NCBI RefSeq assembly: GCF_900091475.1
Contig: NZ_FMIB01000002.1
Coordinates: 5,766,001-5,830,000 of the forward strand
Origin: Micromonospora chersina
GTDB lineage: Bacteria > Actinomycetota > Actinomycetes > Mycobacteriales > Micromonosporaceae
Direction: 5' to 3'
Length of the DNA: 64,000 nucleotides
The position numbers and the translations under genes were made by a program. Positions 20,815 through 54,174 of this stretch are shown in pieces; position 1 is the stretch's first letter, and every line of letters begins with the position of its first letter. The notes under the pieces are model-generated. The model searched no databases and was not told the DNA's origin. It saw only the letters and a list, made by a program, of their open reading frames with translations.

Positions 20815-21963
20815 ATGCGTACGGGTGTCTGGCTGGTGGGAGCGCGCGGCTCGGTCGCGACCACCAGCATCGTCGGGGCGCTCGCCCTGCGGGCCGGGCT
20901 CACCGGCCCGACCGGTTGTGTCACCGAGCTGCCCGAGCTGCGCGGGCCCGCCCTTCCGTCCTTCGCCGATCTGGTGTTCGGCGGACACGACGTGGTGGAC
21001 ACCCCGCTGCCCAAACGCGCCGAGGCGCTCGCCGCCGCCGGGGTGGTGCCCGGCCGGCTGGTCGACGCCCTCGCCGGTGAGCTGGCCGAGGTGGAGGCGG
21101 CTTTGCGTCCCGCGCCGGCCGGCGGCAGCGCGGCCGAACAGGTCGCCGCCGTGGCCCACGACGTGTCCGAGTTCCGCCGCCGGCACGCGCTCGACGGGGT
21201 GGTGGTCGTCAACGTCTCCGCCACCGAACCGGCGCCCGAGCCGCACCCGGCCCACGACGACCTCGCCGCGCTGCGGGCCGCGCTGGCCGGCCCCTCCGAG
21301 GTGCTGCCGCCCAGCTCGCGGTACGCGTACGCGGCGTTCACGGCCGGCTGCCCGTACGTGGACTTCACCCCGTCCACCGGCGCCCGGCTGCCCGCCCTGG
21401 CGGCACTCGCGCGGGAGCGCGGCCTGCCGTACGCCGGGCACGACGGCAAGACCGGCGAGACCCTCGTCAAGTCGGTGCTCGCACCGATGTTCGCGCTGCG
21501 GCACCTGGCCGTCCGCTCCTGGTCCGGTGTCAACCTGCTCGGCGGCGGCGACGGCGCCACGCTCGCCGAGCCCGCCGCCAACGCGGCAAAGGTCGCCAGC
21601 AAGCAGCGGGTGCTCGGGGAGACCCTCGGCTACGTCCCGCAGGGCGACACCCGGATCGACCACGTGGCCGAACTGGGCGACTTCAAGACCGCCTGGGACC
21701 TGGTCACCTTCGCCGGCTTCCTCGGCACCGGCATGCGGCTGGAGTTCACCTGGCACGGCTGCGACTCGGCGCTCGCCGCGCCGCTGGTCCTCGACCTGGC
21801 CCGGCTCACCGCCGCCGCGCACGCCGCCGGCCGGACCGGGCCGCTGGCCGAGCTGGCCTTCTTCTTCAAGGACGGGATCGACGCCCCCACCCACGCGCTG
21901 GCCGAGCAGTGGACGCTGCTGCGGGAGTTCGTCGCCGGCCTGCACGCCGGGGCGGCCCGATGA
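20815..21963 (+). CDS. Inositol-3-phosphate-synthase-family sugar phosphate cyclase, first gene of ebo-like operon
   Basis: A 382-residue NAD-dependent cyclase of the myo-inositol-1-phosphate synthase family. The N-terminal nucleotide fold reads WLVGARGSVATTSIVGALAL (residues 6-25). VNVSATEP follows at ~133. The active-site stretch GHDGKTGETLVKS (208-220) keeps Lys212 at the position of the family K-S/T-G-x-T motif. NLLGGGDGATLAEPAANAAK and GFLGTGMRLEFTWHG are also family-like. GGAGG lies 10 bases before ATG 20815. It overlaps the UbiA gene by 4 bp. In cyanobacterial and pseudomonad ebo operons the cyclase is a dehydroquinate-synthase-like protein (EboD); here an unrelated cyclase fold holds that place. 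The predicted product is a cyclic polyol phosphate; the true substrate is unknown. Confidence 0.85.
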   Translation: MRTGVWLVGARGSVATTSIVGALALRAGLTGPTGCVTELPELRGPALPSFADLVFGGHDVVDTPLPKRAEALAAAGVVPGRLVDALAGELAEVEAALRPAPAGGSAAEQVAAVAHDVSEFRRRHALDGVVVVNVSATEPAPEPHPAHDDLAALRAALAGPSEVLPPSSRYAYAAFTAGCPYVDFTPSTGARLPALAALARERGLPYAGHDGKTGETLVKSVLAPMFALRHLAVRSWSGVNLLGGGDGATLAEPAANAAKVASKQRVLGETLGYVPQGDTRIDHVAELGDFKTAWDLVTFAGFLGTGMRLEFTWHGCDSALAAPLVLDLARLTAAAHAAGRTGPLAELAFFFKDGIDAPTHALAEQWTLLREFVAGLHAGAAR

Positions 21964-22877
21964 CCCGCCTCGCCGACCTCGCCGAACTGGTCCGGGCGCC
22001 GGCCGCGCTCTCCGTGCCGGGGGACGTGCTGTCCGGCGCGGCGGCGGCCGGCGTGCTGGACCGGCGTACGCCCGCGCTGGCCGGTGCCTCGGTGCTGCTG
22101 TACTGGGCCGGGATGGCCGCCAACGACTGGGCGGACCGGCGGCTCGACGCCGTCGAGCGCCCCGAGCGGCCGATCCCCTCCGGCCGCGTCCGCCCGGCCA
22201 CCGCGCTCGGCGTCGCCGCCGGCCTGACCGCCGCCGGGCTCGCCGTGGCCGGCGCCGCCGGGGGCCGGCGCGCCGCCGCCGTCGCCGTCCCCCTCGCCGC
22301 CACCATCTGGGGGTACGACCTGCTCGCCAAGAACACGGCCGCCGGCCCGGCCGTGATGGCCGCCTGCCGGGGCCTGGACGTGCTGCTCGGCGCGAGCGTC
22401 GGCCCGGCCCGTGGCCGTGGCGGGCGGCAGTCGCCGCCGGCCGCTCGCGGGCTCCTCCGGACGCCGCCGGCGGCTCGCGGGCTGGTCCGGGCGCTGCCGG
22501 CCGCGCTGACCGTGGCCGCGCACACCTGGACCGTCACCGCGCTGTCCCGCCGCGAGGTCTCCGGCGCCGACCGGCGGCTGCCCCGGGCCACCCTGGCCGG
22601 GACCGCGCTGGTCGCGGCCACCGCGCTGGGTCGCCCCGACCCGGTGCCGGTGGCGCTGGCCGCCGGCTACGCGGGCCGGTACGGCGCCGCGCAGGCCCGG
22701 GTGCTCGCCGACCCGTCGCCCGCCCGGGTACGCGCCGCCGTCGGCGCCGGCATCACCGGCCTGCCCGCGTTGCAGGGCGCGCTGACCGCCCGGGCCGGCG
22801 CCCGGCTGCTCGGCCTCGCCGTCGCCGCGGCCGCCCCGCTCGGCCGCCGCCTGGCCCGACTGATCTCACCGACATGA
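21960..22877 (+). CDS. UbiA-family prenyltransferase (EboC-like, SCO3242 type)
   Basis: A 305-residue membrane prenyltransferase with about eight helices. The two prenyl-diphosphate/Mg motifs are NDWADRRLD (residues 55-63) and YDLLAKN (119-125), both in the expected place after helices 2 and 4. The enzyme should attach a prenyl chain to a polar acceptor in the membrane. ATG 21960 overlaps the cyclase stop (ATGA) and its own stop overlaps the next gene. An odd feature is a Pro/Arg-rich loop about residues 148-180 containing two in-frame 10-residue repeats (PPAARGLLR/PPAARGLVR) from a 30-bp tandem duplication. In this operon the obvious donor is made by the polyprenyl synthase at 27889 and the acceptor by the cyclase. 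Confidence 0.88.
   Translation: MTRLADLAELVRAPAALSVPGDVLSGAAAAGVLDRRTPALAGASVLLYWAGMAANDWADRRLDAVERPERPIPSGRVRPATALGVAAGLTAAGLAVAGAAGGRRAAAVAVPLAATIWGYDLLAKNTAAGPAVMAACRGLDVLLGASVGPARGRGGRQSPPAARGLLRTPPAARGLVRALPAALTVAAHTWTVTALSRREVSGADRRLPRATLAGTALVAATALGRPDPVPVALAAGYAGRYGAAQARVLADPSPARVRAAVGAGITGLPALQGALTARAGARLLGLAVAAAAPLGRRLARLISPT
22431..22490 (+). repeat. 30-bp in-frame tandem duplication inside ubiA
   Basis: Two adjacent 30-bp units (22431-22460 and 22461-22490) sharing GCCGCCGGC(C/G)GCTCGCGGGCT. They add about ten residues to a cytoplasmic or loop segment of the prenyltransferase without breaking the frame. Confidence 0.7.
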
Positions 22878-23749
22878 CCACCCCGCCGCCGACGACGCTC
22901 GACCCGGCCGGGCTGCGATTCGGGTACGGCACGAACGGGTTTTCGAACCACCGGCTCGGCGACGCGCTCGCCGTCCTGGCCGACCTCGGCTACCAGGGCG
23001 TGGCGCTCACGCTGGACCACGACCACCTGGACCCGTTCACGCCCGGGCTCGCCCGGCGGGTGGCCGCCGTGCGCCGCCGGCTGGACGCGCTCGGCCTGGC
23101 CGTGGTGGTCGAGACCGGTGCCCGCTACCTGCTCGACCCCTGGCACAAGCACGCGCCGACGCTGCTGCACGACGACCCCGCCCCGCGGATCGACTTCCTC
23201 CGCCGCGCCGCCCGGATCGGCGCGGACCTGGGCGCCGAGGCGGTGTCGTTCTGGGCCGGCGTCCGCCCGCCCGAGGTGCCGGCGGCGCTCGCCTGGCAGC
23301 GCCTGGTGGCCGGCTGCGACGCCGTCTGCGTCGAGGCCGCGGCGGCCGGAGTGCCGCTCGGCTTCGAACCCGAGCCGGGCATGCTTGTCGAGGACATCGC
23401 CGGCTGGTTCCGGCTGCGGGAGGCAGTGGGCGCGCCACCCGGCTTCGGGATCACCCTCGACATCGGACACTGCCGCTGCCTGGAGCCGCGGCCGGTGCCC
23501 GACTGCGTGACGGCGGTCGCCGAGCACCTGGTCAACGTGCAGATCGACGACATGCGCCGGGGCGTGCACGAGCACCTGGAGTTCGGCGCGGGCGAGATCG
23601 ACTTCCCTCCGGTGCTGCGCGCCCTCGCCGCCGCCGGCTACCGCGGCCTGGTGGCCGTCGAACTGCCCCGGCACTCCCACGCCGCCCCGGCCGTGGCCGC
23701 CCGCTCGCTCGACTTCCTCCGCGCCGCCGCCTGCAAAGGCGGTGGTTGA
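22874..23749 (+). CDS. Xylose-isomerase-like TIM barrel protein of the ebo-like operon
   Basis: A 291-residue AP-endonuclease-2/sugar-phosphate-isomerase superfamily protein. It starts after GYGTNGFSNHRLGDALAVLA and shows barrel strands ending in candidate metal ligands: VVVETGARYLLDPW, FEPEPGMLVED (164-174, Glu), TLDIGHCRCLEP (Asp, His), VNVQIDDMRRGVHEH and VAVELPRHSH. These four Glu/Asp/His positions fit a divalent-metal isomerase or epimerase site. It overlaps ubiA by 4 bp. It shares the unusual GFEPEPG motif with the EboE protein at 25254, so the two are probably ancient duplicates. The reaction is unknown; isomerisation of the cyclic polyol or keto form made by neighbouring enzymes is my inference. 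Confidence 0.85.
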   Translation: MTTPPPTTLDPAGLRFGYGTNGFSNHRLGDALAVLADLGYQGVALTLDHDHLDPFTPGLARRVAAVRRRLDALGLAVVVETGARYLLDPWHKHAPTLLHDDPAPRIDFLRRAARIGADLGAEAVSFWAGVRPPEVPAALAWQRLVAGCDAVCVEAAAAGVPLGFEPEPGMLVEDIAGWFRLREAVGAPPGFGITLDIGHCRCLEPRPVPDCVTAVAEHLVNVQIDDMRRGVHEHLEFGAGEIDFPPVLRALAAAGYRGLVAVELPRHSHAAPAVAARSLDFLRAAACKGGG

Positions 23750-23782
23750 GCACCTGCCACCCGGCTCGAAAGGGGAGACGGC

Positions 23783-24403
23783 ATGACACCCGACCGACTG
23801 CGCGCCGCGCTGCGGGGCGTACCCGATCCGCAGTGGCTGGACGCGGCCCTGCGCCGCGTCGCGAGCGAGCCCGCCGCGATCCCGCGACTGTTCGCCCTCG
23901 CCGCCCGGCGGTGCGGCCGGGGGCCGCTGCCCGACCCGCCCGGCTGGACCGTCGACGAGGCCGCCCGAACGCTGCTGCTCACCGCGCTCCCCGCCGACCA
24001 CGCCGCGACGGCCGAGGCGCTCTACCGGCACGGTGACGCCGCCGAGAAACGCGCCGTGCTGCGCGCCCTTCCGCTGCTGCCGATCGGGGCGGAGTGCGTG
24101 CCGCTGCTGCACGACGCGATCCGCACCAACGACACCCGGCTGGTGGCCGCAGCCCTCGGCCCGTACGCCCGGCACCTGGAGCAGCCCGCCTGGCGGCACG
24201 CGGTGCTCAAGTGCGTCTTCACCGGCGTGCCGCTGGCCGTCGTCGACGACCTGGACGGGCGGGCGGACGGCGAACTGGCCGCGATGCTCGCCGCGCTCGC
24301 CGCCGAGCGGAACGCCGCCGGCCGCGCCATGCCCGCCGACGCCACCGACCTGCTCGACCGGCTCGGCGCCGGCTCGCACCCGACCACCGCCAGGGAGGCG
24401 TGA
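23783..24403 (+). CDS. eboA: EboA domain-containing protein
   Basis: A 206-residue helical protein matching the EboA family, found only with ebo-type operons and of unknown biochemical role. It starts MTPDRLRAALRGVPDPQWLD. The central part WTVDEAARTLLLTALPADHA, the LYRHGDAAEKRAVLRALPLL segment and GAECVPLLHDAIRTNDTRLV are the family-defining pieces, rich in Leu/Ala helices resembling HEAT-like repeats. No catalytic motif is visible. AAGGGGAG is 9 bases before the ATG. A 33-bp gap separates it from the barrel gene, the largest gap in the operon, and its stop overlaps the TatD-type gene start. I suggest a scaffold or carrier role; this is speculative. Confidence 0.85.
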   Translation: MTPDRLRAALRGVPDPQWLDAALRRVASEPAAIPRLFALAARRCGRGPLPDPPGWTVDEAARTLLLTALPADHAATAEALYRHGDAAEKRAVLRALPLLPIGAECVPLLHDAIRTNDTRLVAAALGPYARHLEQPAWRHAVLKCVFTGVPLAVVDDLDGRADGELAAMLAALAAERNAAGRAMPADATDLLDRLGAGSHPTTAREA

Positions 24404-25254
24404 TGCGCATCTTCGACCCGCACATCCACATGACGTCCCGGACCACCGACGACTACGAGCGGATGGCCGCGGCCGGGGTGCGCGCCGTGGTGGAACCCGC
24501 CTTCTGGCTGGGCCAGCCGCGCACCAGCGTGGACACCTTCGTCGACTACTTCGACTCGCTGATCGGCTGGGAGCCGTTCCGGGCCGGCCAGTTCGGCGTC
24601 CGGCACCACGCCACCGTGGCGCTCAACCCGAAGGAGGCCAACGACCCGCGCTGCCGCCCGGTGCTCGACCTGCTCCCGCGCTACCTCGACAAGGACGGCG
24701 TGGTGGCGGTCGGGGAGATCGGCTACGACTCGATGACCCCGGCCGAGGACGCCGCCTTCGCCGGCCAGCTCGCCCTGGCCGTGGCGCACGACCTGCCCGC
24801 CCTCGTGCACACGCCGCACCGGGACAAGGCGCGCGGCGTCGAGCGCACCCTCGCCGTCGTCGCCGAATCCGGCATCGAACCCGGGCGGGTGCTTGTCGAC
24901 CACCTCAACGAGGTCACCGTGAAGCTGGTGCGGGACACCGGCTGCTGGCTCGGCTTCTCCATTTATCCCGAGACGAAGATGTCGCCGCCGCGGATGGTCG
25001 AGCTGCTGCGGACGTACGGGACCGAGCGGATGCTTGTCAACTCGGCCGCCGACTGGGGGCGCTCCGACCCGCTGCTCACCCGGGCCACCGGCGAGGCCAT
25101 GCTGCTCGCCGGGTTCACCGAGGACGACGTGGACCAGGTGCTGTGGCGCAACCCCGTGGAGTTCTACGGCCAGTCCGGCCGGCTGGACCTCACCGACCTG
25201 GAGGGTGCCGCCGCCACGTTCGCCGGCAACTCGATCCTGCGTGGAGGCGAGTGA
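24403..25254 (+). CDS. eboB: TatD-family metal-dependent hydrolase (EboB)
   Basis: A 283-residue amidohydrolase-fold enzyme. Metal ligands are in order: His7 and His9 (FDPHIHM), Glu in VAVGEIGYDSM, His in LVHTPHRDK, His in LVDHLNEVT, and Asp in NSAADWGRSDP. These define a TatD-like two-metal site. The start ATG overlaps the EboA stop (TGATG) and has AGGGAGG about 6 bases before it; its stop overlaps EboE. TatD proper is a nuclease; the ebo version is a separate branch and its substrate is unknown, probably a small phosphorylated or esterified metabolite of the pathway. All ligands are intact, so the enzyme should be active. Confidence 0.88.
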   Translation: MRIFDPHIHMTSRTTDDYERMAAAGVRAVVEPAFWLGQPRTSVDTFVDYFDSLIGWEPFRAGQFGVRHHATVALNPKEANDPRCRPVLDLLPRYLDKDGVVAVGEIGYDSMTPAEDAAFAGQLALAVAHDLPALVHTPHRDKARGVERTLAVVAESGIEPGRVLVDHLNEVTVKLVRDTGCWLGFSIYPETKMSPPRMVELLRTYGTERMLVNSAADWGRSDPLLTRATGEAMLLAGFTEDDVDQVLWRNPVEFYGQSGRLDLTDLEGAAATFAGNSILRGGE

Positions 25255-26501
25255 TGCGGCTGCGGCACGCCGACGGGACGACCGTCCACCTCGGCTACTG
25301 CACCAACGTCCACCCCGCCGAGGACCTGCCCGGGATCCTCGCCCAGCTCGACACCTACGCCGTCGCCGTCCGCCGGGCGCTCGACACCGACCGGCTGGGG
25401 CTGGGGCTGTGGCTGGCGGCCCCGGTGGCCGCCGCGCTCGCCGCCGACCCGGCGGCCCGCCGCCGGCTCCGGCACGAGCTGACCGTACGCGGGCTGGAGG
25501 TGGTCACGCTCAACGGCTTCCCGTACGCGGCCTTCCAGGCCCCGGTGGTCAAGGGCGCCGTCTACCACCCGGACTGGACCACGCCGGACCGGCTCGCGTA
25601 CACCCTGGACCTGGCCCGGGTGCTGGCCGACCTGCTCCCCGACGACGCGGCCCGCGGCTCGATCTCCACCCTGCCGCTGGCCTGGCGCACACCGTGGGAC
25701 ATCGGCCGGGCCGAGGCCGCCCGCCGCCGCCTCGACGCCCTCGCCGTCGGGCTGGCGGCGGTGGAGCGGGAGACCGGCCGCGCCGTCCGGGTCGGCTTCG
25801 AACCGGAACCGGGCTGTCTGGTGGAGTCCACGGGACAGGCACGCGAGGTATTGTCAGCCATGGATACCGAGCGGCTCGGGATCTGCGTGGACCTGGCACA
25901 CCTCGCCTGCGCCTGGGAGGAGCCGGTCGAGGCCCTCGCGCGGCTGCGCGACGCCGGGCTGCCGGTGGTCAAGGTGCAGGTCTCCGCCGCCGTGGAGGCG
26001 CCCGACCCGGCCGGCTCGGCCGAGGCACTGCGCCGCTGGGTCGAGCCGCGCTTCCTGCACCAGACCCGCGCCGCGGGCTGCGCCGGCGCCACCGACCCGG
26101 CCGACCCGGCGTACGCGGCCGACGACCTGGACGCCGCCCTCGACGCGCGGCTGCCCGGGGCGTGGCGGGTGCACTACCACGTGCCGTTGCACGCACCACC
26201 CGAACCGCCGCTGCGATCCACCGTGCCGGTGCTCCGGGCCGCCCTCGCCGCGCTCTACACCGGCCCGGTCGCCGGCTGCGACCACCTCGACGTCGAGACG
26301 TACACCTGGGGGGTGCTGCCGGCCGCGCGACGGCCGCACACCGACGCGGAGCTGGCCGCCGGCATCGCCGCCGAGCTGGCCTTCGCCCGCGACGAGCTGG
26401 TCGGCCTGGGGCTGGCCACCACGGCGGGGGCCGTGAGCGCGTGGAGTGAGCCGGTTCTGCGAGCCCCGCAGTCGCGAACGAAGGAAGGTGCTGCCTCGTG
26501 A
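25254..26501 (+). CDS. eboE: Metabolite traffic protein EboE (TIM barrel)
   Basis: A 415-residue xylose-isomerase-like barrel protein of the EboE family. Visible family parts: VHLGYCTNVHPAEDLPGILA at the N-terminus, EVVTLNGFPYAAFQ, VKGAVYHPDWTTPDRLAYTL, GFEPEPGCLVE at 181-191, GICVDLAHLACAWE, VVKVQVSAAVE, and VHYHVPLHA near the C-terminus, where Glu, Asp and His residues could bind a metal. It overlaps TatD by 4 bp and the phosphodiesterase gene by 4 bp. In Nostoc the ebo genes are needed for a scytonemin precursor to reach the periplasm, hence the name; EboE itself has no proven reaction. The fold suggests an isomerase, not a transporter. Confidence 0.88.
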   Translation: MRLRHADGTTVHLGYCTNVHPAEDLPGILAQLDTYAVAVRRALDTDRLGLGLWLAAPVAAALAADPAARRRLRHELTVRGLEVVTLNGFPYAAFQAPVVKGAVYHPDWTTPDRLAYTLDLARVLADLLPDDAARGSISTLPLAWRTPWDIGRAEAARRRLDALAVGLAAVERETGRAVRVGFEPEPGCLVESTGQAREVLSAMDTERLGICVDLAHLACAWEEPVEALARLRDAGLPVVKVQVSAAVEAPDPAGSAEALRRWVEPRFLHQTRAAGCAGATDPADPAYAADDLDAALDARLPGAWRVHYHVPLHAPPEPPLRSTVPVLRAALAALYTGPVAGCDHLDVETYTWGVLPAARRPHTDAELAAGIAAELAFARDELVGLGLATTAGAVSAWSEPVLRAPQSRTKEGAAS

Positions 26502-27892
26502 GCCGGCGGCTCGTGGTGCTCGACGTGGTGGGGCTGACCCCGCGGCTGCTGGCGCACATGCCCCGGCTGCGCGCGATCGCGGAGGCCGGCTTCGCCGCCG
26601 AGCTGGGCACCGTGCTGCCCGCGGTGACCTGCTCGGTGCAGTCGACCTTCCTGACCGGCGAGCCCCCGTCCGGGCACGGGATCGTCGGCAACGGCTGGTA
26701 CTTCCGCGACCTCGGCGAGGTGCTGCTCTGGCGGCAGCACAACGCCCTGGTGGGCGGGGAGAAGCTGTGGCAGGCGGCGCGCCGGGTCGAGCCCGGCTAC
26801 CGGGTCGCCAACGTCTGCTGGTGGTACGCCATGGGCGCCGACGTGGACTGGACGGTGACCCCGCGCCCGATCTACCACGCCGACGGGCGCAAGGAGCCGG
26901 ACTGCTGGACCGACCCGCCGGAGCTGCACGACGAGCTGACCGGCGCGCTCGACACCTTCCCGCTGTTCACCTACTGGGGGCCCGGCGCCGGGCTGCCCTC
27001 GTCGGCCTGGATCTGCCGGGCCGCCGAGAAGATCCTCGCCGACCACGCGCCGGACCTCACCCTCGTCTACGTCCCGCACCTCGACTACGACCTGCAACGC
27101 TTCGGCCCGTCCTCGCCCCGGGCCGCCGCCGCGGCGGCGGAGCTGGACGCGGTGCTCGCGCCGCTGCTCGACGCCGCCCGGGAGCGGGACGCCACGGTGG
27201 TGGCGCTCTCCGAGTACGGCATCACCGACGTCTCCCGGCCGGTGGACGTCAACCGGATGCTGCGCGCCGAGGGGCTGCTGCGGGTCTACACCCAGGCCGG
27301 CATGGAATACCTGGACCCGTGGACCTCGCGGGCCTTCGCGGTCGCCGACCACCAGGTGGCGCACGTCTACGTGCGGGACCCGGCCGACGTGCCCGCGGTG
27401 GCGAAGCTCTGCGCGGCCCTGCCCGGGGTGGCCGAGGTGCTGGACGCCGCCGGCCAGGCCGGGTACGGGCTGGACCATGCGCGCTCCGGCGAGCTGGTGC
27501 TGGTGGCCGAACCGGACGCCTGGTTCACCTACTACTACTGGCGGGACGACGCCCGCGCGCCCGACTTCGCCCGGCTCGTCGAGATCCACCGCAAGCCCGG
27601 CTACGACCCGGCCGAACTCTTCTTCGACCCGGCCGCGCCGGGCGCCGCGAAGCGCCGGGCCGCTGTCGCGCTGGCCCGCAAGAAGCTCGGGATGCGCTAC
27701 CTCATGAGCGTGGTCGGCCTGGACGCCGGGGCCCGGGCGGTGCGCGGCTCCCACGGCCGGCTCCCCGCCGACCCGGCCGACGGGCCGGTGCTGCTCTGCT
27801 CCGACCCGGCCGCGGCCCGGGACCGGCTGGCCGCGACCGACGTGAAGGCGCTGCTGCTCCACCTCGCCGGACTGGCCCGGGAGGCCCCATGA
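26498..27892 (+). CDS. Alkaline-phosphatase-superfamily nucleotide pyrophosphatase/phosphodiesterase (EboF-like)
   Basis: A 464-residue enzyme of the type I phosphodiesterase/nucleotide pyrophosphatase family. Metal and nucleophile sites are visible: Asp in VLDVVGLTP, the Thr nucleophile in LPAVTCSVQSTFLTG, GHGIVGNGWYFRD, YVPHLDYDLQRFGP (Asp and His ligands), LSEYGITD, and DHQVAHVY (His). No signal peptide or membrane helix, so it acts in the cytosol. GTG 26498 overlaps eboE by 4 bp; GAAGGAAGG stands ~9 bases upstream. It would hydrolyse a phosphodiester or diphosphate bond, for example dephosphorylating the prenylated intermediate. This matches the eboF place in known ebo operons, which is the reason for the EboF-like call. 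Confidence 0.87.
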   Translation: MSRRLVVLDVVGLTPRLLAHMPRLRAIAEAGFAAELGTVLPAVTCSVQSTFLTGEPPSGHGIVGNGWYFRDLGEVLLWRQHNALVGGEKLWQAARRVEPGYRVANVCWWYAMGADVDWTVTPRPIYHADGRKEPDCWTDPPELHDELTGALDTFPLFTYWGPGAGLPSSAWICRAAEKILADHAPDLTLVYVPHLDYDLQRFGPSSPRAAAAAAELDAVLAPLLDAARERDATVVALSEYGITDVSRPVDVNRMLRAEGLLRVYTQAGMEYLDPWTSRAFAVADHQVAHVYVRDPADVPAVAKLCAALPGVAEVLDAAGQAGYGLDHARSGELVLVAEPDAWFTYYYWRDDARAPDFARLVEIHRKPGYDPAELFFDPAAPGAAKRRAAVALARKKLGMRYLMSVVGLDAGARAVRGSHGRLPADPADGPVLLCSDPAAARDRLAATDVKALLLHLAGLAREAP

Positions 27893-28956
27893 CCGTGACC
27901 GTCGCACCGACCGACCCGGCCCTGCTGCGGGACCGCTTCGACGCGGCGCTCGCCGCGTTCCTCCGCGAGCGCGGGCCGGGTCGGCCGGACGACGGCACGG
28001 GGGCCGTGCACGCGGTGCTCCGCCGGTTCGTCCTGGCCGGCGGCAAGCGGCTGCGGCCGCTGTTCTGCTACTGGGGCTGGCGGGGCTTCGGCGGCCCCGA
28101 CGGGGGCCCCATCGTGGTGGCCGCGGCGGCGCTGGAGCTGTTCCACGCCTTCGCGCTGATCCACGACGACATCCTGGACCGCAGCGACCGCCGGCGCGGC
28201 GAGCCGACCGTCCACCGGATCTTCGCCGACCGGCACGTCCGGGCCGGCTGGCGCGGCGACCCCGAGGCGTACGGCCGGCAGGCGGCCCTGCTCTGCGGCG
28301 ACCTGTGCGCCGCCTGGTCCGGGCAGATGTTCCACGGCTGCGGGCTGGACACCGAGCGGCTGCGCCGGGGCCACGCCCTGCTGGCCCGGATGCGGGCCGA
28401 GGTGATCGCGGGGGAGTACCTCGACGTGGTGGCCGCTGCCGGCGACGGCTCGGTGGCCAGCGCCCTCGCGGTGGTCCGGATGAAGACGGCGCGCTACACG
28501 GTGACCCGCCCGGTGCAGGTGGGCGCCGCCCTGGCCGGGGCGGACCCGGAGGTGGTGGCGGCGCTGGCCGGGTTCGGCGACCCGCTCGGGGACGCCTTCC
28601 AGCTCCGCGACGACCTGCTCGGCGTCTTCGGCGACCCGGCGCTGACCGGCAAGTCCAACCTGGACGACCTGCGGGAGGGGAAGCCGACCGTGCTGCTGGC
28701 GCTGGCCCGGGCGCACGCCGGGCCGGCCGGGTTGGCACGGCTGCGGGCGCTTGTCGGCGACCCGGCGCTGGGCCCGGCGGGCGCCGCCGAGGTGCGTGGC
28801 ATCGTCGAGGCGTCCGGTGCGCGGGCGGCGGTGGAGCGGATGATCCGGTCGCGGGCCGACGCCGCCCTGGCCGCCCTGGACCGGCTGCCGCTGACCGGGC
28901 CGGCCCGGGCGGCGCTGGCGGACCTGGCGGCCCGGGCCGTGGACCGGCGTCGCTGA
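27889..28956 (+). CDS. Polyprenyl diphosphate synthase
   Basis: A 355-residue trans-isoprenyl diphosphate synthase. GGKRLRP (51-57) binds isopentenyl diphosphate; the first Asp-rich motif DDILD is at 93-97, with LIHDDILDRSDRRRGEPTVH; the second reads FQLRDDLLGVFGD (237-249), where the usual fifth-position Asp is Gly. Residues before the first DDxxD are ALELFHAFALI; Phe residues at the -5/-8 side would limit chain length, pointing to a short or medium product such as C15-C20, but this is inference. ATG 27889 overlaps the phosphodiesterase stop by 4 bp. As last gene of the operon it supplies the prenyl donor for the UbiA enzyme. Confidence 0.92.
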   Translation: MTVTVAPTDPALLRDRFDAALAAFLRERGPGRPDDGTGAVHAVLRRFVLAGGKRLRPLFCYWGWRGFGGPDGGPIVVAAAALELFHAFALIHDDILDRSDRRRGEPTVHRIFADRHVRAGWRGDPEAYGRQAALLCGDLCAAWSGQMFHGCGLDTERLRRGHALLARMRAEVIAGEYLDVVAAAGDGSVASALAVVRMKTARYTVTRPVQVGAALAGADPEVVAALAGFGDPLGDAFQLRDDLLGVFGDPALTGKSNLDDLREGKPTVLLALARAHAGPAGLARLRALVGDPALGPAGAAEVRGIVEASGARAAVERMIRSRADAALAALDRLPLTGPARAALADLAARAVDRRR

Positions 28957-29243: not shown

Positions 29244-32078
29244 ATGTCCAGCCCCCACCACACCCCCACCCGACGATGGCTCCCCGCCGGATCGGCGCTG
29301 CTACTCGCGGCGGCCGCCGGCGCGGTCGGCCTTGCCGCGACGCCCGTCCCGGCGTCCGCGCACCCCATCTCCGCGACCGACTTCCAGCAGGTGGAACTCG
29401 CCCGCGGCGTCGCCGAGACCGGCGAACCGATGTCCCTCGCGGTGCTGCCCGACCGTTCGGTCCTGCACACCGCCCGCAACGGCACGCTGCGGCGCACCGA
29501 CGCCGCCGGCGTCACCACAGTGATCGGCACGCTGTCCGTCTACACCCACGACGAGGAGGGGCTCCAGGGCGTCGGCGTCGACCCCGGCTTCGGGAGCAAC
29601 CGGCAGATCTACCTCTACTACGCGCCCCCGCTGTCCACCCCGGCCGGCGACGCACCCGCCACCGGCACCGACTTCTCCGTCTGGCGCGGCGTCAACCGGC
29701 TCTCCCGGTTCACCCTCAACGCCGACTTCACGCTCAACCAGGCGAGCAAGGTCGACGTGCTGGACGTGCCGGCCGACCGGGGCATCTGCTGCCACGTCGG
29801 CGGCGACATCGACTTCGACGCCGCCGGCAACCTCTACCTCTCCACCGGCGACGACACCAACCCGTTCGACTCCGGCGGCTACGCGCCGATCGACGAGCGG
29901 ACCGACCGCAACCCCGCGTACGACGCGCAGCGCAGCGCCGGCAACACCAACGACCTGCGCGGCAAGATCCTGCGGATCAAGGTGAACGCCGACGGCTCGT
30001 ACTCGATCCCCGCCGGCAACCTCTTCCCGGTCGGCACCGCGAAGACCCGGCCGGAGATCTACGCGATGGGCTTCCGCAACCCGTTCCGGATGAGCGTGGA
30101 CCGGGCCACCGGCGTCGTCTACGTCGGCGACTACGGCCCGGACGCCGGCACCAGTTCGGCCCGCGGCCCCTCCGGGCAGGTTGAGTTCGACCGCGTCACC
30201 GCGCCCGGCAACTACGGCTGGCCGTACTGCACCGGCACCAACACGGCGGCCGAGACGTACGCCGAGTGGGACTTCGCCACCGGCACGGCCGGCGCGAAGT
30301 ACAACTGCGCGGGCGGCCCCACGAACAACTCGTTCCGCAACACCGGCCAGAGCACGCTGCCGGCCGCCAAACCGGCCTGGATCCGGTACGCGGGCGACGC
30401 CGGCAGCCCGCCCGAGTTCGGTGGCGGCTCCGAGTCGCCGATGGCCGGCCCGGTCTACCGGTACGACGCCGCCAACCCGTCCACCACGAAGTTCCCGCAG
30501 TCCTTCGACGGGCAGTTCTTCGCCACCGAGTTCGGCCGGGGCTGGATCAAGCCGATCCACCTCAACGCCGACGGCACGCCCGGCACCATCGATTCCTTCC
30601 CGTGGACCGGCAAGCAGGTGATGGACTCGGCGTTCGGGCCGGACGGCGCGTACTACGTGCTCGACTACGGCACCGGCTACTTCAACGGCGACGCCAACTC
30701 GGCGCTGTACCGCTTCGACTACCTCGGCGGCGGCAACCGCGCGCCGGTGGCCCGGGCCGCCGCCGACAAGACCTCCGGCGCCGCGCCGTTGGCGGTCGCC
30801 TTCTCCTCGGCCGGCTCGTCCGACCCGGAGGGCGGGGCGCTCACGTACGCCTGGGCGTTCGGTGACGGCGGCACCTCGACGGCGGCGAACCCGTCGCACA
30901 CCTACACCGCCAACGGCCGGTACACCGCCACGCTGACCGTCCGGGACCCGCAGGGCGCCACCGGCACCGCCAGCGTGATCATCACGGTCGGCAACACCGC
31001 GCCGACGGTCACCGTGAACAGCCCGGGCAACGGGCAGCTCTTCTCCTTCGGCGACACCGTGCCGTTCCGGATCACCGTCACCGACCCGGAGGACGGCACG
31101 ATCGACTGCACAAAGGTCAAGATGACCTACGTGCTCGGCCACGACCAGCACGGCCACCAGATCACCTCGGCGACCGGCTGCACCGGGTCGATCAGCATCC
31201 CGGTCGACGGCGAGCACGACGACGCGGCGAACATCTTCGCGATCTTCGACGCCGAGTACACCGACTCCGGCGGCCTGACCACGCACACCCAGCACACCCT
31301 CCAGCCCCGCCACCGGCAGGCCGAGCACTTCAAGACCTCGTCCGGGATCAACACCTTCGACAAGGCGACCGCCGAGGGCGGCAGGACGGTCGGCGACATC
31401 CAGAACGGGGACTGGATCGCGTTCGAGCCGTACCAGCTCGGCAACGTCACCGGGTTCAGCGCCCGGGTCTCCTCGGCCGGGGCGGGCGGCACCCTCCAGA
31501 TCCGGGCCGGCTCGGCCACCGGCACCGTGCTGGGCTCGGCCACCGTGCCGGTGACCGGGGCGTGGGACACGTTCACCACGGTGACCGGCGCGATCACCAA
31601 CCCGCCCGCCGGGACCACCACCCTCTACCTCACGTTCGCGGGCGGCACCGGCGCGCTCTACGACGTGGACTCGTTCACCCTCACCACCTCCGCCGTCCGC
31701 ACCGGGCCCATCCGGGGGCTGGCCGGCAAGTGCCTCGACGTCCGCAACGCCGCGACCGCCGACGGCACCCAGGTCCAGCTCTACACCTGCAACGGCACCG
31801 CCGCGCAGAGCTGGACGGTGACCCCGAACGCGACCATCAAGGCGCTCGGCAAGTGCCTCGACATCTCCGGCGGCGCGACCGCCGACGGCACGAAGATCCA
31901 GCTCTGGACGTGCAACGGCACCGGCGCGCAGAACTGGTCCGCCCAGGCCGACGGCACGCTGCGCAACCCGCAGTCCGGCAAGTGCCTCGACGTCTCCGGC
32001 AACAACTCCGCCGACAGCACCCCCGTACACCTCTGGACCTGCACCGCCGCGCCCAACCAGAAGTGGCTCCTGCCCTGA
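29244..32078 (+). CDS. Secreted PQQ-type sugar dehydrogenase with PKD, CBM6 and ricin-type lectin domains
   Basis: A 944-residue exported enzyme. Signal peptide 1-39 (cleavage after VPASA). Residues ~45-495 form a glucose/sorbosone dehydrogenase beta-propeller (GVAETGEPMSLAVLPDRSVL, DEEGLQGVGVDPGF, GRICCHVGGD-type segment ICCHVGGDIDFDAAGNLYLS, PEIYAMGFRNPFRMSVD, NYGWPYC). A PKD domain lies at ~499-590, a further beta-sandwich at ~591-690, CBM6 at ~690-815 and a ricin B-type lectin at ~821-944 with three GKCLDV repeats. It should oxidise sugar units of a polysaccharide or bound glycan outside the cell, passing electrons to an unknown acceptor. Its C-terminal half is nearly identical to that of the next gene. 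Promoter region holds ROK site 2. Confidence 0.9.
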   Translation: MSSPHHTPTRRWLPAGSALLLAAAAGAVGLAATPVPASAHPISATDFQQVELARGVAETGEPMSLAVLPDRSVLHTARNGTLRRTDAAGVTTVIGTLSVYTHDEEGLQGVGVDPGFGSNRQIYLYYAPPLSTPAGDAPATGTDFSVWRGVNRLSRFTLNADFTLNQASKVDVLDVPADRGICCHVGGDIDFDAAGNLYLSTGDDTNPFDSGGYAPIDERTDRNPAYDAQRSAGNTNDLRGKILRIKVNADGSYSIPAGNLFPVGTAKTRPEIYAMGFRNPFRMSVDRATGVVYVGDYGPDAGTSSARGPSGQVEFDRVTAPGNYGWPYCTGTNTAAETYAEWDFATGTAGAKYNCAGGPTNNSFRNTGQSTLPAAKPAWIRYAGDAGSPPEFGGGSESPMAGPVYRYDAANPSTTKFPQSFDGQFFATEFGRGWIKPIHLNADGTPGTIDSFPWTGKQVMDSAFGPDGAYYVLDYGTGYFNGDANSALYRFDYLGGGNRAPVARAAADKTSGAAPLAVAFSSAGSSDPEGGALTYAWAFGDGGTSTAANPSHTYTANGRYTATLTVRDPQGATGTASVIITVGNTAPTVTVNSPGNGQLFSFGDTVPFRITVTDPEDGTIDCTKVKMTYVLGHDQHGHQITSATGCTGSISIPVDGEHDDAANIFAIFDAEYTDSGGLTTHTQHTLQPRHRQAEHFKTSSGINTFDKATAEGGRTVGDIQNGDWIAFEPYQLGNVTGFSARVSSAGAGGTLQIRAGSATGTVLGSATVPVTGAWDTFTTVTGAITNPPAGTTTLYLTFAGGTGALYDVDSFTLTTSAVRTGPIRGLAGKCLDVRNAATADGTQVQLYTCNGTAAQSWTVTPNATIKALGKCLDISGGATADGTKIQLWTCNGTGAQNWSAQADGTLRNPQSGKCLDVSGNNSADSTPVHLWTCTAAPNQKWLLP
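31866..31993 (+). repeat. Duplicated lectin-domain DNA, copy 1
   Basis: Runs of identity with the next gene: 31866-31939 equals 34046-34119 (74 bases), and 31944-31993 equals 34124-34173 (50 bases). The whole lectin segments (about 31705-32075 and 33890-34255) are alignable with few changes. Confidence 0.85.
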
Positions 32079-32086
32079 GCTGAGAA

Positions 32087-32134
32087 AGGAGGGGCCCCTT
32101 CTTAACGCCTGGCGTTGTACAGGGGCCCCCTCCT
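32087..32134. repeat. GGGGCCCC-type hairpin repeat, copy 1
   Basis: AGGAGGGGCCCCT (32087-32099) faces AGGGGCCCCCTCCT (32121-32134) with one bulged base; an inner ACGCC/GGCGT stem and TTAAC blocks lie between. It shares its 13-base core with the repeat at 36033-36086. It lies 9 bp after the dehydrogenase stop and may act as terminator, but its repetition and symmetry suggest a dispersed genus-specific element. Confidence 0.7.
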
Positions 32135-32152
32135 AACACCTAGGAGAGCGAC

Positions 32153-34258
32153 ATGAGACTTCTCCGCACCGTTCTCGGCGCGGCCACCGCCGTCCTCGCC
32201 ACCCTCGCCTGCACCACCCCGGCCACCCCGGCGGCCGCCGCCGACGCGCCCTACGACGTGCTGGTCTTCTCCAAGACCGCCGGCTTCCGGCACGACGCCA
32301 TCCCGGCCGGCATCCAGGCCATCCGCGACCTCGGCGTGGCGAACAACTTCACGGTCACCGCCACCGAGGACGCCGCGCAGTTCACCACCGCCAACCTCGC
32401 CCGGATCGAGGCGGTGGTCTTCCTCAACACCACCGGCGACGTGCTCAACGCCACCCAGCAGACCGCCTTCGAGGCGTACATCGGCGCGGGCGGCGGCTAC
32501 GTGGGCGTCCACGCCGCGGCCGACACCGAGTACGACTGGCCGTTCTACGGCAACCTGGTCGGTGCCTGGTTCGCCTCCCACCCGGCCATCCAGGCGGCGA
32601 ACGTGAAGGTGGAGGACCGGGCGCACGCCGCCACAGCCCACCTGCCGCAGACCTGGAACCGCACCGACGAGTGGTACAACTACCGCACCAACGCCCGGTC
32701 CACCGCGCACGTGCTGGCCACCCTCGACGAGTCGTCCTACTCGGGCGGCTCCATGGGCGGCGACCACCCGCACGCCTGGTGCAAGGCGTACGCGGGCGGC
32801 CGGTCCTTCTACACCGGCGGCGGCCACACCCAGGCGTCCTACGCCGAGCCCGCGTTCCGCGCCCACCTGCTCGGCGGCATCCGGTACGCGGCCGGCCGCA
32901 GCAGGGCCGACTGCCGCCCGGAGACGGGCTACACGGCGCTCTACAACGGCGCCACCACCGGCTGGTCCCAGGCCGGGCCGGGCAGCTTCACCAACGCCGA
33001 CGCCACCCTCACCTCGGTCGGCGGGATGGGCCTGTACTGGTACAGCGCGAAGCAGTTCACCAACTACTCGCTGAAGCTCGACTGGCGGCTGGCCGGCGAC
33101 GACAACTCCGGCGTCTTCATCGGCTTCCCGCCGTCGAGCGACCCCTGGTCGGCGGTGAACAACGGCTACGAGATCCAGATCGACCCGACCGACAGCCCCG
33201 ACCGGACCACCGGTTCGGTCTACACCTTCAAGTCCGCCGACCTCGCGGCCCGGGACGCGGCGCTCAACCCGGCGGGGGAGTGGAACACCTACGAGCTGCT
33301 GGTCGAGGGGGAGCGGCTCCAGGTCTTCCTGAACGGCGTGAAGATCAACGACTTCACCAACACGGACCCGGCGCGGTCCCTCGCCGGCCACGTCGGCATC
33401 CAGAACCACGGCACCGGCGACGACGTCTCGTTCCGCAACATCCGGATCAAGGAACTGGGTGGCACGCCGCCGACCGGGAACACCACAGTGCAGGCGGAGG
33501 CGTTCAGCTCCGCCAGCGGCGTCACGCCGTTCACCAAGGCCGGCGCCAACGGCGGGCAGACCCTCGGCTACGTCGACCCGGGCGACTGGGCCGCGTACCA
33601 GGGGCTCGACCTGACCGGGGTGACCTCGTTCCGGGCCCGGGTGGTCTCCGGCGGGCCGGGCGGCACCATCCAGATCCGCACCGGCTCCCCGACGGGCACC
33701 GTGCTCGGTCAGGTGGCCGTGCCCAACACCGGAAGCTGGACGACGTTCGCCGACGTCAGCACCGCGCTGACCGGCGTGCCGAGCGGCAGCCAGACCCTCT
33801 GGCTGACCTTCACGGGCACCGGCTCCGGGCTGTTCGACGTCGACGACTTCACGCTGGTCCGGGGCGGCGGCGGTGGTGGCACCGGCCCGATCCGGGGCCT
33901 GGCCGGCAAGTGCCTCGACGTGCGTAGCGGCGCCACCGCGGACGGCACCCAGATCCAGCTCTACACGTGCAACGGCAGCACCGCGCAGACCTGGACGGTG
34001 ACCCCCAACTCCACCGTCAAGGCGCTGGGCAAGTGCCTCGACGTGTCCGGCGGCGCGACCGCCGACGGCACGAAGATCCAGCTCTGGACGTGCAACGGCA
34101 CCGGCGCGCAGAACTGGTCGGCGCAGGCCGACGGCACGCTGCGCAACCCGCAGTCCGGCAAGTGCCTCGACGTGGCGGGCAACAACTCCGCCGACAGCAC
34201 CCCGGTGCAGCTCTGGTCCTGCACCGGCGCCGCGAACCAGCGGTGGACCCTGCCCTGA
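32153..34258 (+). CDS. Secreted ThuA - DUF1080 (3-keto-disaccharide hydrolase type) protein with CBM6 and ricin-type lectin
   Basis: A 701-residue exported protein. Signal peptide about 1-29 (PAAAA-DAP). ThuA-like domain ~33-250 (YDVLVFSKTAGFRHDAIPAG, GGYVGVHAAADTEYDWPFYG, MGGDHPHAWC). DUF1080 domain ~257-435, starting YTALYNGATTGWSQAG and containing GVFIGFPPSSDPWSAVNNGY with EIQID, typical of the 3-keto-disaccharide hydrolase family. CBM6 ~442-575 and ricin B lectin ~583-701 follow. CTAGGAGAG is 8 bases before the ATG. ThuA proteins take part in 3-keto-sugar (for example trehalose-derived) metabolism, and DUF1080 relatives cleave 3-keto-glycosides. Paired with the dehydrogenase upstream, it suggests extracellular oxidation then cleavage; the pairing is observed, the pathway inferred. 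Confidence 0.9.
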   Translation: MRLLRTVLGAATAVLATLACTTPATPAAAADAPYDVLVFSKTAGFRHDAIPAGIQAIRDLGVANNFTVTATEDAAQFTTANLARIEAVVFLNTTGDVLNATQQTAFEAYIGAGGGYVGVHAAADTEYDWPFYGNLVGAWFASHPAIQAANVKVEDRAHAATAHLPQTWNRTDEWYNYRTNARSTAHVLATLDESSYSGGSMGGDHPHAWCKAYAGGRSFYTGGGHTQASYAEPAFRAHLLGGIRYAAGRSRADCRPETGYTALYNGATTGWSQAGPGSFTNADATLTSVGGMGLYWYSAKQFTNYSLKLDWRLAGDDNSGVFIGFPPSSDPWSAVNNGYEIQIDPTDSPDRTTGSVYTFKSADLAARDAALNPAGEWNTYELLVEGERLQVFLNGVKINDFTNTDPARSLAGHVGIQNHGTGDDVSFRNIRIKELGGTPPTGNTTVQAEAFSSASGVTPFTKAGANGGQTLGYVDPGDWAAYQGLDLTGVTSFRARVVSGGPGGTIQIRTGSPTGTVLGQVAVPNTGSWTTFADVSTALTGVPSGSQTLWLTFTGTGSGLFDVDDFTLVRGGGGGGTGPIRGLAGKCLDVRSGATADGTQIQLYTCNGSTAQTWTVTPNSTVKALGKCLDVSGGATADGTKIQLWTCNGTGAQNWSAQADGTLRNPQSGKCLDVAGNNSADSTPVQLWSCTGAANQRWTLP
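34046..34173 (+). repeat. Duplicated lectin-domain DNA, copy 2
   Basis: Partner of 31866-31993, with identical runs 34046-34119 and 34124-34173. The two copies are about 2.2 kb apart in direct orientation, so recombination between them could delete or fuse the intervening ThuA-DUF1080 segment. Confidence 0.85.
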
Positions 34259-53143: not shown

Positions 53144-53232
53144 TGGTCCTCCAGGTTCGGGACGGAATGGCGTGCCTGGACAGCTCGCTCACGCCATGGT
53201 GCCTCCTTCCCGCACGCGCGTACCCTTCGTGC

Positions 53233-54174
53233 GTGATCAACAACGTGAAGCTCGCGGTCGTCGGCGTCGGCAACAACACGTCGGCGCTGGTGCAGGGGAT
53301 CGCCTTCCACCGCGGCACCGGCAGCCTGGTGGGCGTCCACCGGCCGGAGGTGGCCGGGCTGGCGGTCGGTGACATCGACGTCGTCGCGGCCTTCGCCCTC
53401 TCCGACGGCAAGGTCGGCAAGGACCTGCACGAGGCGATCTTCGTTGCGCCCAACAACTTCCCGCGGCTCGACGTGGAGCTGCCGCCCGCGGGCGTGACGG
53501 TGCAGGCCGGTCTCGTCGACTCGACGGAGGTCGAGCGGGTGGCACACGCGCTGGAGGGCGCCGAGGTGCTGCTCTATTCCGCGCCGAGCGGCAGGCCCGA
53601 AACCGCCCACGCGTACGCCGAGGCGGCCCTGCGGGCGGGCGTGGCGTTCGTGAACACCACCTCGGACGCGGTCGCCCGGGAACCGCTGTGGCTCACGCGG
53701 TTCGAGGAGGCCGGCCTGCCGCTGCTCGGCGACGACCTGGCCAGCCAGTTCGGCACCTCCGTGGTGCACCGCGCACTGCTGCGGTTGCTCGAGGAGCGCG
53801 GGCTCACCCTGGTCAGTTCCTACCAGGTGAATCTGGGGGGTACGGAGGACTTCCGTAACCTGGTCGAGAACCCCAACACCAAGGCGCGGTCCAAGTTGAA
53901 TGCCGTCGGGTCCGACAAGGTGCAGATGGCGCCCCTCGGATATCTCCCGCACCTGCGATCCCAGAAGATCGCCCACCTCAACGTCGAAGCGCAGGGCTGG
54001 GGTGGGACAGCGGTGAGCCTGGACGTGCGGCTGAAGGTGGACGACCCGAGTGGCGCGGCTGGCGTCAACATCGACCTGATCCGGATGGCCGCCGCCGCTC
54101 TGCGTTCCGGCCGTGGTGGCTACCTCGCCGAGGCGGCGTCGTACCTGAAGTCCCCGCCCGGAACCGCGATCTGA
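53233..54174 (+). CDS. Ino1-type myo-inositol-1-phosphate synthase homologue with altered active site
   Basis: A 313-residue protein of the actinobacterial Ino1 family. It starts INNVKLAVVGVGNNTSALVQ and shows SDGKVGKDLHEAIFVAPNNF, VLLYSAPSGRPETAHAYAEA, NTTSDAVAREPLWLTRFEEA and LPLLGDDLASQFGTSVVHRA. In catalytic Ino1 proteins the last motif is GDDIKSQVGAT; here Ala170 replaces the conserved lysine, while the two Asp remain. The C-terminal VDDPSGAAGVNIDLIRMAAA is normal. It is also shorter than typical (~360). TACCCT (53221-53226) six bases before GTG 53233 supports a leaderless start. It may have lost cyclase activity or do a different reaction. It is divergent from the Clp-N protein gene. 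Confidence 0.82.
   Translation: MINNVKLAVVGVGNNTSALVQGIAFHRGTGSLVGVHRPEVAGLAVGDIDVVAAFALSDGKVGKDLHEAIFVAPNNFPRLDVELPPAGVTVQAGLVDSTEVERVAHALEGAEVLLYSAPSGRPETAHAYAEAALRAGVAFVNTTSDAVAREPLWLTRFEEAGLPLLGDDLASQFGTSVVHRALLRLLEERGLTLVSSYQVNLGGTEDFRNLVENPNTKARSKLNAVGSDKVQMAPLGYLPHLRSQKIAHLNVEAQGWGGTAVSLDVRLKVDDPSGAAGVNIDLIRMAAAALRSGRGGYLAEAASYLKSPPGTAI

Follow-up and report, generated by a model that had tools for sequence, protein, structure and literature searches.

The ebo genes, five of which are required for scytonemin in Nostoc, were named in 2016 and are spread over many phyla. The described cluster, eboABCDEF, occurs in cyanobacteria, Bacteroidota, proteobacteria and the plastids of eustigmatophytes, and the two papers concerned predict an isoprenoid-cyclitol as its product (PMC5133447, PMC6282210), a prenylated cyclitol having been proposed already in 2016 (PMC5133447). 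A C7 sugar is given as the predicted substrate of EboD, and Nostoc mutants point to a role of ebo in metabolite export, the only functional lead that these sources provide (PMC6282210).

The window analysed here, a stretch of 64,000 nucleotides from Micromonospora chersina, carries eight genes at positions 20815-28956, all on the + strand. They encode a cyclase of the myo-inositol-phosphate synthase (MIPS) superfamily that stands in for EboD (20815..21963; PF07994, 162 bits; PF01658, 95 bits), a UbiA prenyltransferase of the SCO3242 family as the EboC counterpart (21960..22877; NF045897, 361.7, cut-off 260), a xylose-isomerase-like TIM barrel (22874..23749; PF01261, 125.7, cut-off 31.1), EboA (23783..24403; NF035938, 160.8 bits, cut-off 50), the TatD-like hydrolase EboB (24403..25254, alternative GTG start 24400; PF01026, 41.9, cut-off 27), the TIM barrel EboE (25254..26501, alternative GTG start 25251; NF035939, 405.4, cut-off 250), an EboF-like phosphodiesterase (26498..27892; PF01663, 210.7, cut-off 23) and a trans-prenyl diphosphate synthase (PPS; 27889..28956; PF00348, 154.6, cut-off 27). 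The original prediction of a compact, ebo-like operon of eight genes was borne out in both respects. Overlaps do not exceed 4 bp, and the sole intergenic gap, between the TIM barrel and EboA (23749 to 23783), measures 33 bp; the MIPS/UbiA, UbiA/TIM barrel, EboE/EboF and EboF/PPS pairs each overlap by 4 bp, as do EboA/EboB and EboB/EboE with the GTG starts (1 bp with ATG). The EboA and EboE models are both passed. Seven of the eight genes exceed a Pfam gathering score; EboA has no Pfam match above it and stays under the cut-off of the stricter NF035937 (81.6 bits, cut-off 320), and no dedicated EboB model was among the profile-scan matches.

Judged by these profile matches, the operon is an ebo-type cluster of the MIPS type. 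It shares with eboABCDEF the EboA domain, the TatD-like EboB, a UbiA enzyme, EboE, a PF01663 EboF and the compact layout. It differs in having a MIPS relative where the described cluster has EboD, a UbiA enzyme of the SCO3242 family and an extra TIM barrel, to which most Micromonospora loci examined add the PPS. Among the matches listed from open-access articles, none reported an ebo cluster that contains an inositol synthase. The MIPS form is a variant of the known ebo cluster, and the cyclitol idea itself is already published.

The first gene had been labelled a sugar phosphate cyclase. A cyclase it is, but PF07994 and PF01658 place it with MIPS, outside the dehydroquinate-synthase-like superfamily of EboD, so that one member of the published six-gene ebo set is absent and replaced. 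Both MIPS Pfam domains and the Asp/Asn/Lys active-site set are present, with 8/8 checked positions intact, and these eight positions are invariant in 99/99 actinomycete ebo-MIPS copies. The nearest solved relative is the MIPS of A. fulgidus (1u1i; 330 bits with a 10-sequence profile). Its catalytic lysines are kept in the ebo cyclase, whereas Gly replaces its Asp at position 244, as read from the printed alignment, and the ebo gene context belongs to the Micromonospora side. Gly occupies position 244 in all 99 actinomycete ebo-MIPS copies and other MIPS have Asn (11/12) or Thr (1/12), so the substrate or product may differ from that of ordinary MIPS. Rings other than inositol can be within reach of MIPS relatives, as illustrated by a five-membered-cyclitol-phosphate synthase (6k96) that is related to the cyclase at 75 bits. 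The possibility that the gene is a duplicate of mycothiol Ino1 was rejected, as it scores 29.7 bits against the TIGR03450 cut-off of 638 and stands apart from Ino1 in the tree. Because Ino1 is a separate gene in the same genome (668.9 bits, cut-off 638), and the single DHQ_synthase match over the cut-off in that genome is located outside the operon, the ebo cyclase appears to be a dedicated enzyme.

The UbiA enzyme falls under the cut-off of the EboC equivalog NF035940 (116.5 bits, cut-off 250). The namesake of the family that it does pass is SCO3242 of Streptomyces coelicolor, which the accessible part of one paper places, together with SCO3243, given there as a myo-inositol phosphate synthase, among the CDA antibiotic cluster genes, with no ebo role mentioned in that part (PMC3610822). 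The enzyme has the first Asp-rich motif, NDxxDxxxD, of which N55, D56, D59 and D63 are invariant in 10/10 EboC/SCO3242 sequences. A second such motif is usual in UbiA enzymes; the second half of these 10 sequences contains no conserved Asp-rich stretch. Of the solved structures, digeranylgeranylglyceryl phosphate synthase (6m31) best matches the EboC/SCO3242 profile, at 68 bits over the first half only (profile positions 4-149); this archaeal ether-lipid prenyltransferase acts on a polyol phosphate. Menaquinone synthesis had been named beforehand as an unrelated pathway in which the operon enzyme might act. This role, and one in heme synthesis, can be ruled out because both functions are encoded separately: another UbiA gene passes MqnP (424 bits, cut-off 420) as well as a model for 4-hydroxybenzoate prenyltransferase (434.7, cut-off 364), and yet another is the heme o synthase (362, cut-off 246). 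A fourth UbiA gene in the genome, at C2:4686421, lies under every cut-off.

The profile of the extra TIM barrel matches xylose-isomerase-like proteins, among them IolE and further ones of the dehydratase or hydratase type, which may indicate the candidate types of its reaction. The PPS has a farnesyl diphosphate synthase as its nearest solved chain (252 bits) and a GGPP synthase as the next (240 bits). It comes after EboF at 11/13 further Micromonospora loci examined and seldom does so elsewhere; further matches in the fetched stretches lie downstream on the same strand (L139, 57 bits; L140, 58; L219, 43), upstream of MIPS (L040, L142, L165) or on the opposite strand (L044, L152), and none of at least 30 bits was found in L047-L137. 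The operon does have its own prenyl donor synthase, as had been claimed, but this is mainly a Micromonospora addition outside the conserved unit, and the PPS was rejected as a conserved cluster part outside that genus.

Across multi-gene actinomycete loci, MIPS is present in 97/104 and EboD in none, and the order MIPS-UbiA-TIM-EboA-B-E-F is kept in 92/104. The MIPS form is the usual actinomycete form of the ebo cluster. Only one (L190) of the seven loci that lack MIPS does so without an accountable cause. In a phylum sample of 296 genomes, the same 13, that of M. chersina included, were over the SCO3242 and EboE cut-offs; since these are the same 13 genomes, and the seven-gene order recurs so widely, the grouping of the genes is more than chance. 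A lack of conserved co-occurrence of the eight genes in related genomes had been set beforehand as evidence against the original prediction; seven families recur in fixed order across the class, and the prediction withstands this check. The PPS is mostly restricted to Micromonospora. Protein database searches with EboE and MIPS returned only close relatives among the matches listed (Micromonospora and one Verrucosispora were named) and were therefore used for identification, not breadth.

Of the 186 loci at which three or more core ebo families are present, 101 have MIPS, 76 EboD, nine neither and none both. As the sequences show, a MIPS-superfamily enzyme is, in gene content, the occupant of the place that EboD holds in other phyla. 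In Gemmatirosa, MIPS and the TIM barrel belong to a plasmid-borne ebo cluster, and the record that carries it lacks a DHQ synthase. In trees, the Gemmatirosa EboF groups with four proteobacterial EboD-type sequences (100/97), and the UbiA groups with the MIPS type of actinomycetes (87/90). Placing this UbiA with those four sequences, a group chosen after inspection of the tree, was rejected (p-AU 0.002), and placing it with all EboD-type sequences was not (p-AU 0.307); nor was one single cyclase switch rejected on EboF (p-AU 0.288) or EboE (p-AU 0.346). Three haloarchaeal plasmids combine MIPS with UbiA, TatD, TIM barrels and a phosphodiesterase, without EboA or EboE.

We propose that the MIPS-type operon probably makes a prenylated, inositol-derived cyclitol. 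Ring closure by the cyclase would turn glucose 6-phosphate, or a compound close to it, into an inositol phosphate, whose rearrangement and dephosphorylation would fall to the TIM barrels together with the two hydrolases, EboB and EboF. The membrane UbiA enzyme would attach a chain of farnesyl or geranylgeranyl length to the ring, with the donor in Micromonospora coming from the adjacent PPS, and the product, held in the membrane, would assist secreted enzymes or small molecules at the membrane or outside it. The role as a carrier or signal that was first suggested for such a compound is purely conjectural. It is conceivable, if doubtful, that MIPS-type and EboD-type clusters arrive by separate routes at one and the same compound, with MIPS and the TIM barrel jointly doing the work of EboD. 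The two cyclases are never found together in the 186 loci. The TIM barrel accompanies MIPS in 93/97 actinomycete loci as well as in the haloarchaeal sets and Gemmatirosa, and few EboD loci have it (2/82). However, four MIPS loci lack the TIM barrel, the UbiA enzyme of the MIPS type is of a different family, and MIPS would use a C6 sugar as opposed to the C7 sugar predicted for EboD (PMC6282210).

An aromatic acceptor for the UbiA enzyme, formed by dehydration of the cyclase product by the TIM barrels or obtained from elsewhere, is unlikely; it would lead to a prenylated phenol, quinoline or quinone. EboC homologues farnesylated quinolines in vitro, using 6/14 aromatic acceptors in a panel without cyclitols, but accepted no phenol or catechol (PMC9235831). 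A known example of a ring from a cyclitol pathway that a UbiA relative prenylates is BE-40644 (cited in PMC5133447). The IolE and other matches of the TIM barrel would fit such a dehydration; the conserved unit, however, has no oxygenase or aromatase gene, and the solved-structure match of the UbiA enzyme is a polyol-phosphate enzyme. We regard it as highly improbable that the cyclase is a mere supplier of inositol to another pathway, co-transcribed with the prenylation genes. This could account for the second clusters L037 and L154, which lack MIPS and keep the other six genes, but each of these genomes owns another cluster with MIPS, and both the near-constant presence of MIPS in a fixed order and the separate Ino1 gene in Micromonospora argue against it.

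Two + strand neighbours of the operon are at most candidate parts of it: a GSDH-type protein that also has PKD, CBM6 and ricin-type domains (29244..32078; PF07995, 111 bits) and a protein combining ThuA, 3-keto-disaccharide hydrolase, CBM6 and ricin-type domains (32153..34258; PF06283, 270 bits; PF06439, 136 bits). Secreted-type GSDH proteins lie near 53/97 MIPS loci. The GSDH and ThuA types are seen in actinomycetes, some Bacteroidota and haloarchaea, and ScyE in cyanobacteria. A ScyD/ScyE-like protein is a weak candidate for a general actinomycete neighbour (3/97 MIPS loci), the GSDH type being more general; elsewhere, such neighbours occur at the plasmid locus L052 and at 2/86 loci of the EboD-type set. 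It is decidedly unlikely, though worth stating, that bacterial and haloarchaeal ebo clusters, whichever of the two cyclases they have, make a prenylated polyhydroxy ring anchored in the membrane (from inositol in the MIPS type), and that it is the lipid partner of secreted beta-propeller proteins (GSDH/ThuA, ScyE), with substrate or electrons being handed over there.

With a ring-forming enzyme that is related to one whose action is well understood, the range of chemistry to be considered for the ebo product becomes smaller. The MIPS-type cluster predicts that EboD and the combination of MIPS with the TIM barrel are exchangeable, or that they make related rings, and the GSDH/ThuA link is a first hint of an extracellular partner.

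Eight forward-strand genes lie head to tail at 20815-28956 of the window, which covers C2:5766001-5830000 in the 6.68 Mb genome of M. chersina, with overlaps of 1-4 bp and a single gap of 33 bp. Family scans identified them, in gene order, as a cyclase of the myo-inositol-phosphate synthase (MIPS) superfamily, an SCO3242-family UbiA prenyltransferase, a TIM barrel, EboA, a TatD-like EboB, EboE, a PF01663 EboF and a trans-prenyl diphosphate synthase. Public annotation already labels parts of this set (inositol-3-phosphate synthase, SCO3242 family prenyltransferase, EboA and EboE). Database searches with EboE and the cyclase returned Micromonospora proteins as the nearest named matches, the cyclase being 98% identical to an M. 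chersina protein among the matches listed.

The cyclase distinguishes this operon from the published ebo cluster. EboD was described as a member of the dehydroquinate (DHQ)-synthase-like superfamily (PMC5133447), whereas the enzyme encoded here was assigned to PF07994/PF01658 by a Pfam scan. When solved structures were compared with a profile of 10 cyclase sequences, A. fulgidus MIPS scored best (330 bits) and M. tuberculosis Ino1 scored 62 bits. Eight active-site positions, chosen from known MIPS biochemistry and from two A. fulgidus lysine mutants seen among the structure matches, were invariant in all 12 other aligned MIPS and in 99/99 actinomycete ebo copies (matches of at least 140 bits, which excludes a short 68-bit match at locus L158). 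Position 244 is Gly in all 99 ebo copies, versus Asn (11) or Thr (1) in the 12 other MIPS, and this serves as a warning that the substrate or product of the cyclase may have shifted. In a genome-wide profile search Ino1 proved to be a gene of its own, and a single DHQ-synthase match in the genome exceeded the cut-off. A third MIPS-superfamily gene at 53167-54174 (+), adjoined on the opposite strand by a ClpN-domain gene, scored 61 bits to PF01658 and 172 bits, under the cut-off, to TIGR03450; it retains the eight checked positions.

The same arrangement recurs widely in actinomycetes. Thirteen genomes in a phylum sample of 296, including that of M. chersina, passed the SCO3242 cut-off, and the identical 13 passed the EboE cut-off; one other (G279) held fragments of both, below the cut-offs. 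The EboE cut-off was passed in 90 of 394 genomes of a class sample, and the SCO3242 cut-off in 45 of 61 genomes of a genus sample. We fetched 114 actinomycete loci. The phylum sample supplied 14 and the class sample another 84 EboE places above the cut-off; five more were EboE places below it, and the remaining 11 were taken from the 45 positive genomes of the genus. Of the 114 loci, 97 contained MIPS and none EboD, while eboE stood alone in 10. The full order MIPS-UbiA-TIM-EboA-B-E-F was found in 92 of the 104 multi-gene loci. Seven multi-gene loci lacked MIPS: two are second clusters in genomes that have another cluster with MIPS (L037, L154), three lie at a contig end (L162, L195, L196), one is damaged (L046), and L190 fits none of these cases. 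Four MIPS loci lacked the TIM barrel (L141, L143, L164, L170), and the UbiA search of the fetched loci detected none in L170 or L215. Genes upstream of L037 encode a FAD enzyme resembling CrtO/CrtI and an inositol-monophosphatase/HisN-type phosphatase. In the actinomycete loci L177, L206, L209, L220-L226 and L055, eboE was the sole ebo gene on the stretch fetched; L055 has type II polyketide genes alongside.

Beyond actinomycete chromosomes, we compared 91 loci, made up of 11 regions from two plasmid listings and 80 named loci from a genome scan; the latter are the best 80 of at least 581 matches to Deinococcus EboE and, because of that ranking, hold no actinomycete. Of the 91, 82 had EboD, accompanied by a TIM match in two cases, and no locus carried both MIPS and EboD. 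The MIPS carriers were three Streptomyces plasmid loci (L052-L054) and Gemmatirosa kalamazoonensis (L057). On the Streptomyces sp. AMCC400023 plasmid (L054), the cluster neighbours FAD enzymes, a 4Fe-4S protein, an amidase, and glutamine-synthetase-like and PurB-like genes, surroundings that may resemble diazo-forming antibiotic clusters. In Gemmatirosa, EboE is encoded on the strand opposite to EboB, EboF, UbiA, MIPS and TIM; no EboA turned up in this locus, and no DHQ synthase on its 1.04 Mb record. Searching plasmids with the cyclase gave 44 records; five were haloarchaeal, and four of these were fetched. The Halocatena, Halobaculum and Natronococcus plasmids (L248, L249, L250) carry ebo-like sets in which MIPS is accompanied by UbiA, a PF01663-type protein, a TatD protein and either two or three TIM barrels, with EboA and a full EboE absent from the fetched stretches; the fourth, from Halomarina, has MIPS amid glycosyltransferases. 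The Halocatena UbiA aligned with almost the entire EboC model (178 bits) and almost the entire SCO3242 model (164 bits), scoring below both cut-offs. Plasmid MIPS of Roseomonas and Hymenobacter (L252, L253) lie in a different set with YcaO-like and Gfo/Idh genes, that of Hymenobacter also including a TIM barrel that scored 147 bits against a TIM from a MIPS-type ebo cluster.

In the MIPS tree, 23 actinomycete ebo rows form one group (92/99), with Gemmatirosa and the haloarchaea branching outside it in no firmly supported order. Gemmatirosa groups with actinomycetes in the UbiA tree (87/90), and in the EboF tree it nests among four EboD-type rows from proteobacteria (100/97); the cyclase labels are coarse, as L061 and L117 count as EboD-type though no EboD was seen on their stretches, and L190 as MIPS-type though it lacks MIPS. 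The EboE tree also includes lone-eboE rows and L037. AU tests rejected Gemmatirosa UbiA with the four proteobacterial rows (p 0.002), a group named post hoc from the tree, and did not reject it with all EboD-type rows (p 0.307). Branch support thus suggests a second, independent cyclase switch, but the AU tests do not force it, because a single MIPS-type clade was not rejected for UbiA (p 0.261), EboF (0.288) or EboE (0.346).

Just downstream of the operon, at 29244-34258, are a GSDH-type protein (PF07995) and a ThuA/3-keto-disaccharide hydrolase protein, with CBM6 and ricin-type domains. Counting matches of at least 50 bits to window proteins on the fetched stretches, GSDH neighboured 53 of the 97 MIPS loci, ThuA 34, the 3-keto-disaccharide hydrolase domain 45 and a Gfo/Idh protein 23, versus 5, 6, 4 and 3 among 86 EboD-type stretches, a set that includes a few without visible EboD; the 10 lone-eboE stretches had no match to any of them. 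Fisher values overstate this enrichment because the loci share kinship. Among the MIPS loci, those with a GSDH neighbour were spread over 12 of 26 genera and 7 of 13 families, those with ThuA over only five genera. Unguided single-linkage clustering of neighbouring frames, in which shared domains may join members and clusters are named by example, gave a largest cluster in all 97 MIPS loci, taken to be shadow frames of the ebo genes themselves, followed by a GSDH-type cluster in 67 loci and 15 genera. Ten host genomes with a GSDH neighbour hold 44 GSDH genes, or approximately 0.01 expected per stretch. ThuA is encoded three times in M. chersina, and two of these genes lie downstream of the operon, no more than 13 kb away. 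A ThuA family also recurs next to 12 EboD-type loci (11 Bacteroidota, one Balneolota). A pqqB search gave no match in this genome and none over the cut-off in its control genomes. In Nostoc, the beta-propeller clan protein ScyE is required for scytonemin; a 2016 study argued that it does not act directly in the last step (PMC4870267), and a 2018 study assigned the final dimerisation to it (PMC6282210). Immediately upstream of its MIPS-type cluster, Streptomyces camelliae carries a member of the ScyD/ScyE family (243 bits against a cut-off of 80).

The first Asp motif is common to EboC and SCO3242 rows, and the second is not visible in their alignment. Among solved structures they come closest to digeranylgeranylglyceryl phosphate synthase, an enzyme that prenylates a polyol phosphate. 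Of 13 other Micromonospora loci (L038, L203, L227-L237), 11 have the prenyl diphosphate synthase after EboF; this enzyme likely makes a short chain, since its nearest solved relatives are farnesyl and geranylgeranyl diphosphate synthases. EboC homologues farnesylated 6 of 14 aromatic acceptors, quinolines best and phenols and catechols not at all, in a reported panel without cyclitols (PMC9235831).

The sequences establish which genes are present and in what order, the type of cyclase, the conserved residues and the replacement of EboD. An isoprenoid-cyclitol product was already proposed in 2016, in a paper that also noted an EboA-isomerase-like fusion in actinobacteria and genomes without eboD (PMC5133447); we found no description of MIPS replacement in ebo clusters among the open-access papers searched. 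We propose that MIPS would make the ring, which TIM barrels and hydrolases would then modify and to which UbiA would attach a prenyl chain. Nostoc mutants deleted for eboA, B, C, E or F no longer produce scytonemin and retain its monomer in the cell, eboD being outside the deletion set (PMC6282210). The prenylated lipid would act at the membrane, where, by analogy with Nostoc, it may have a role in export.
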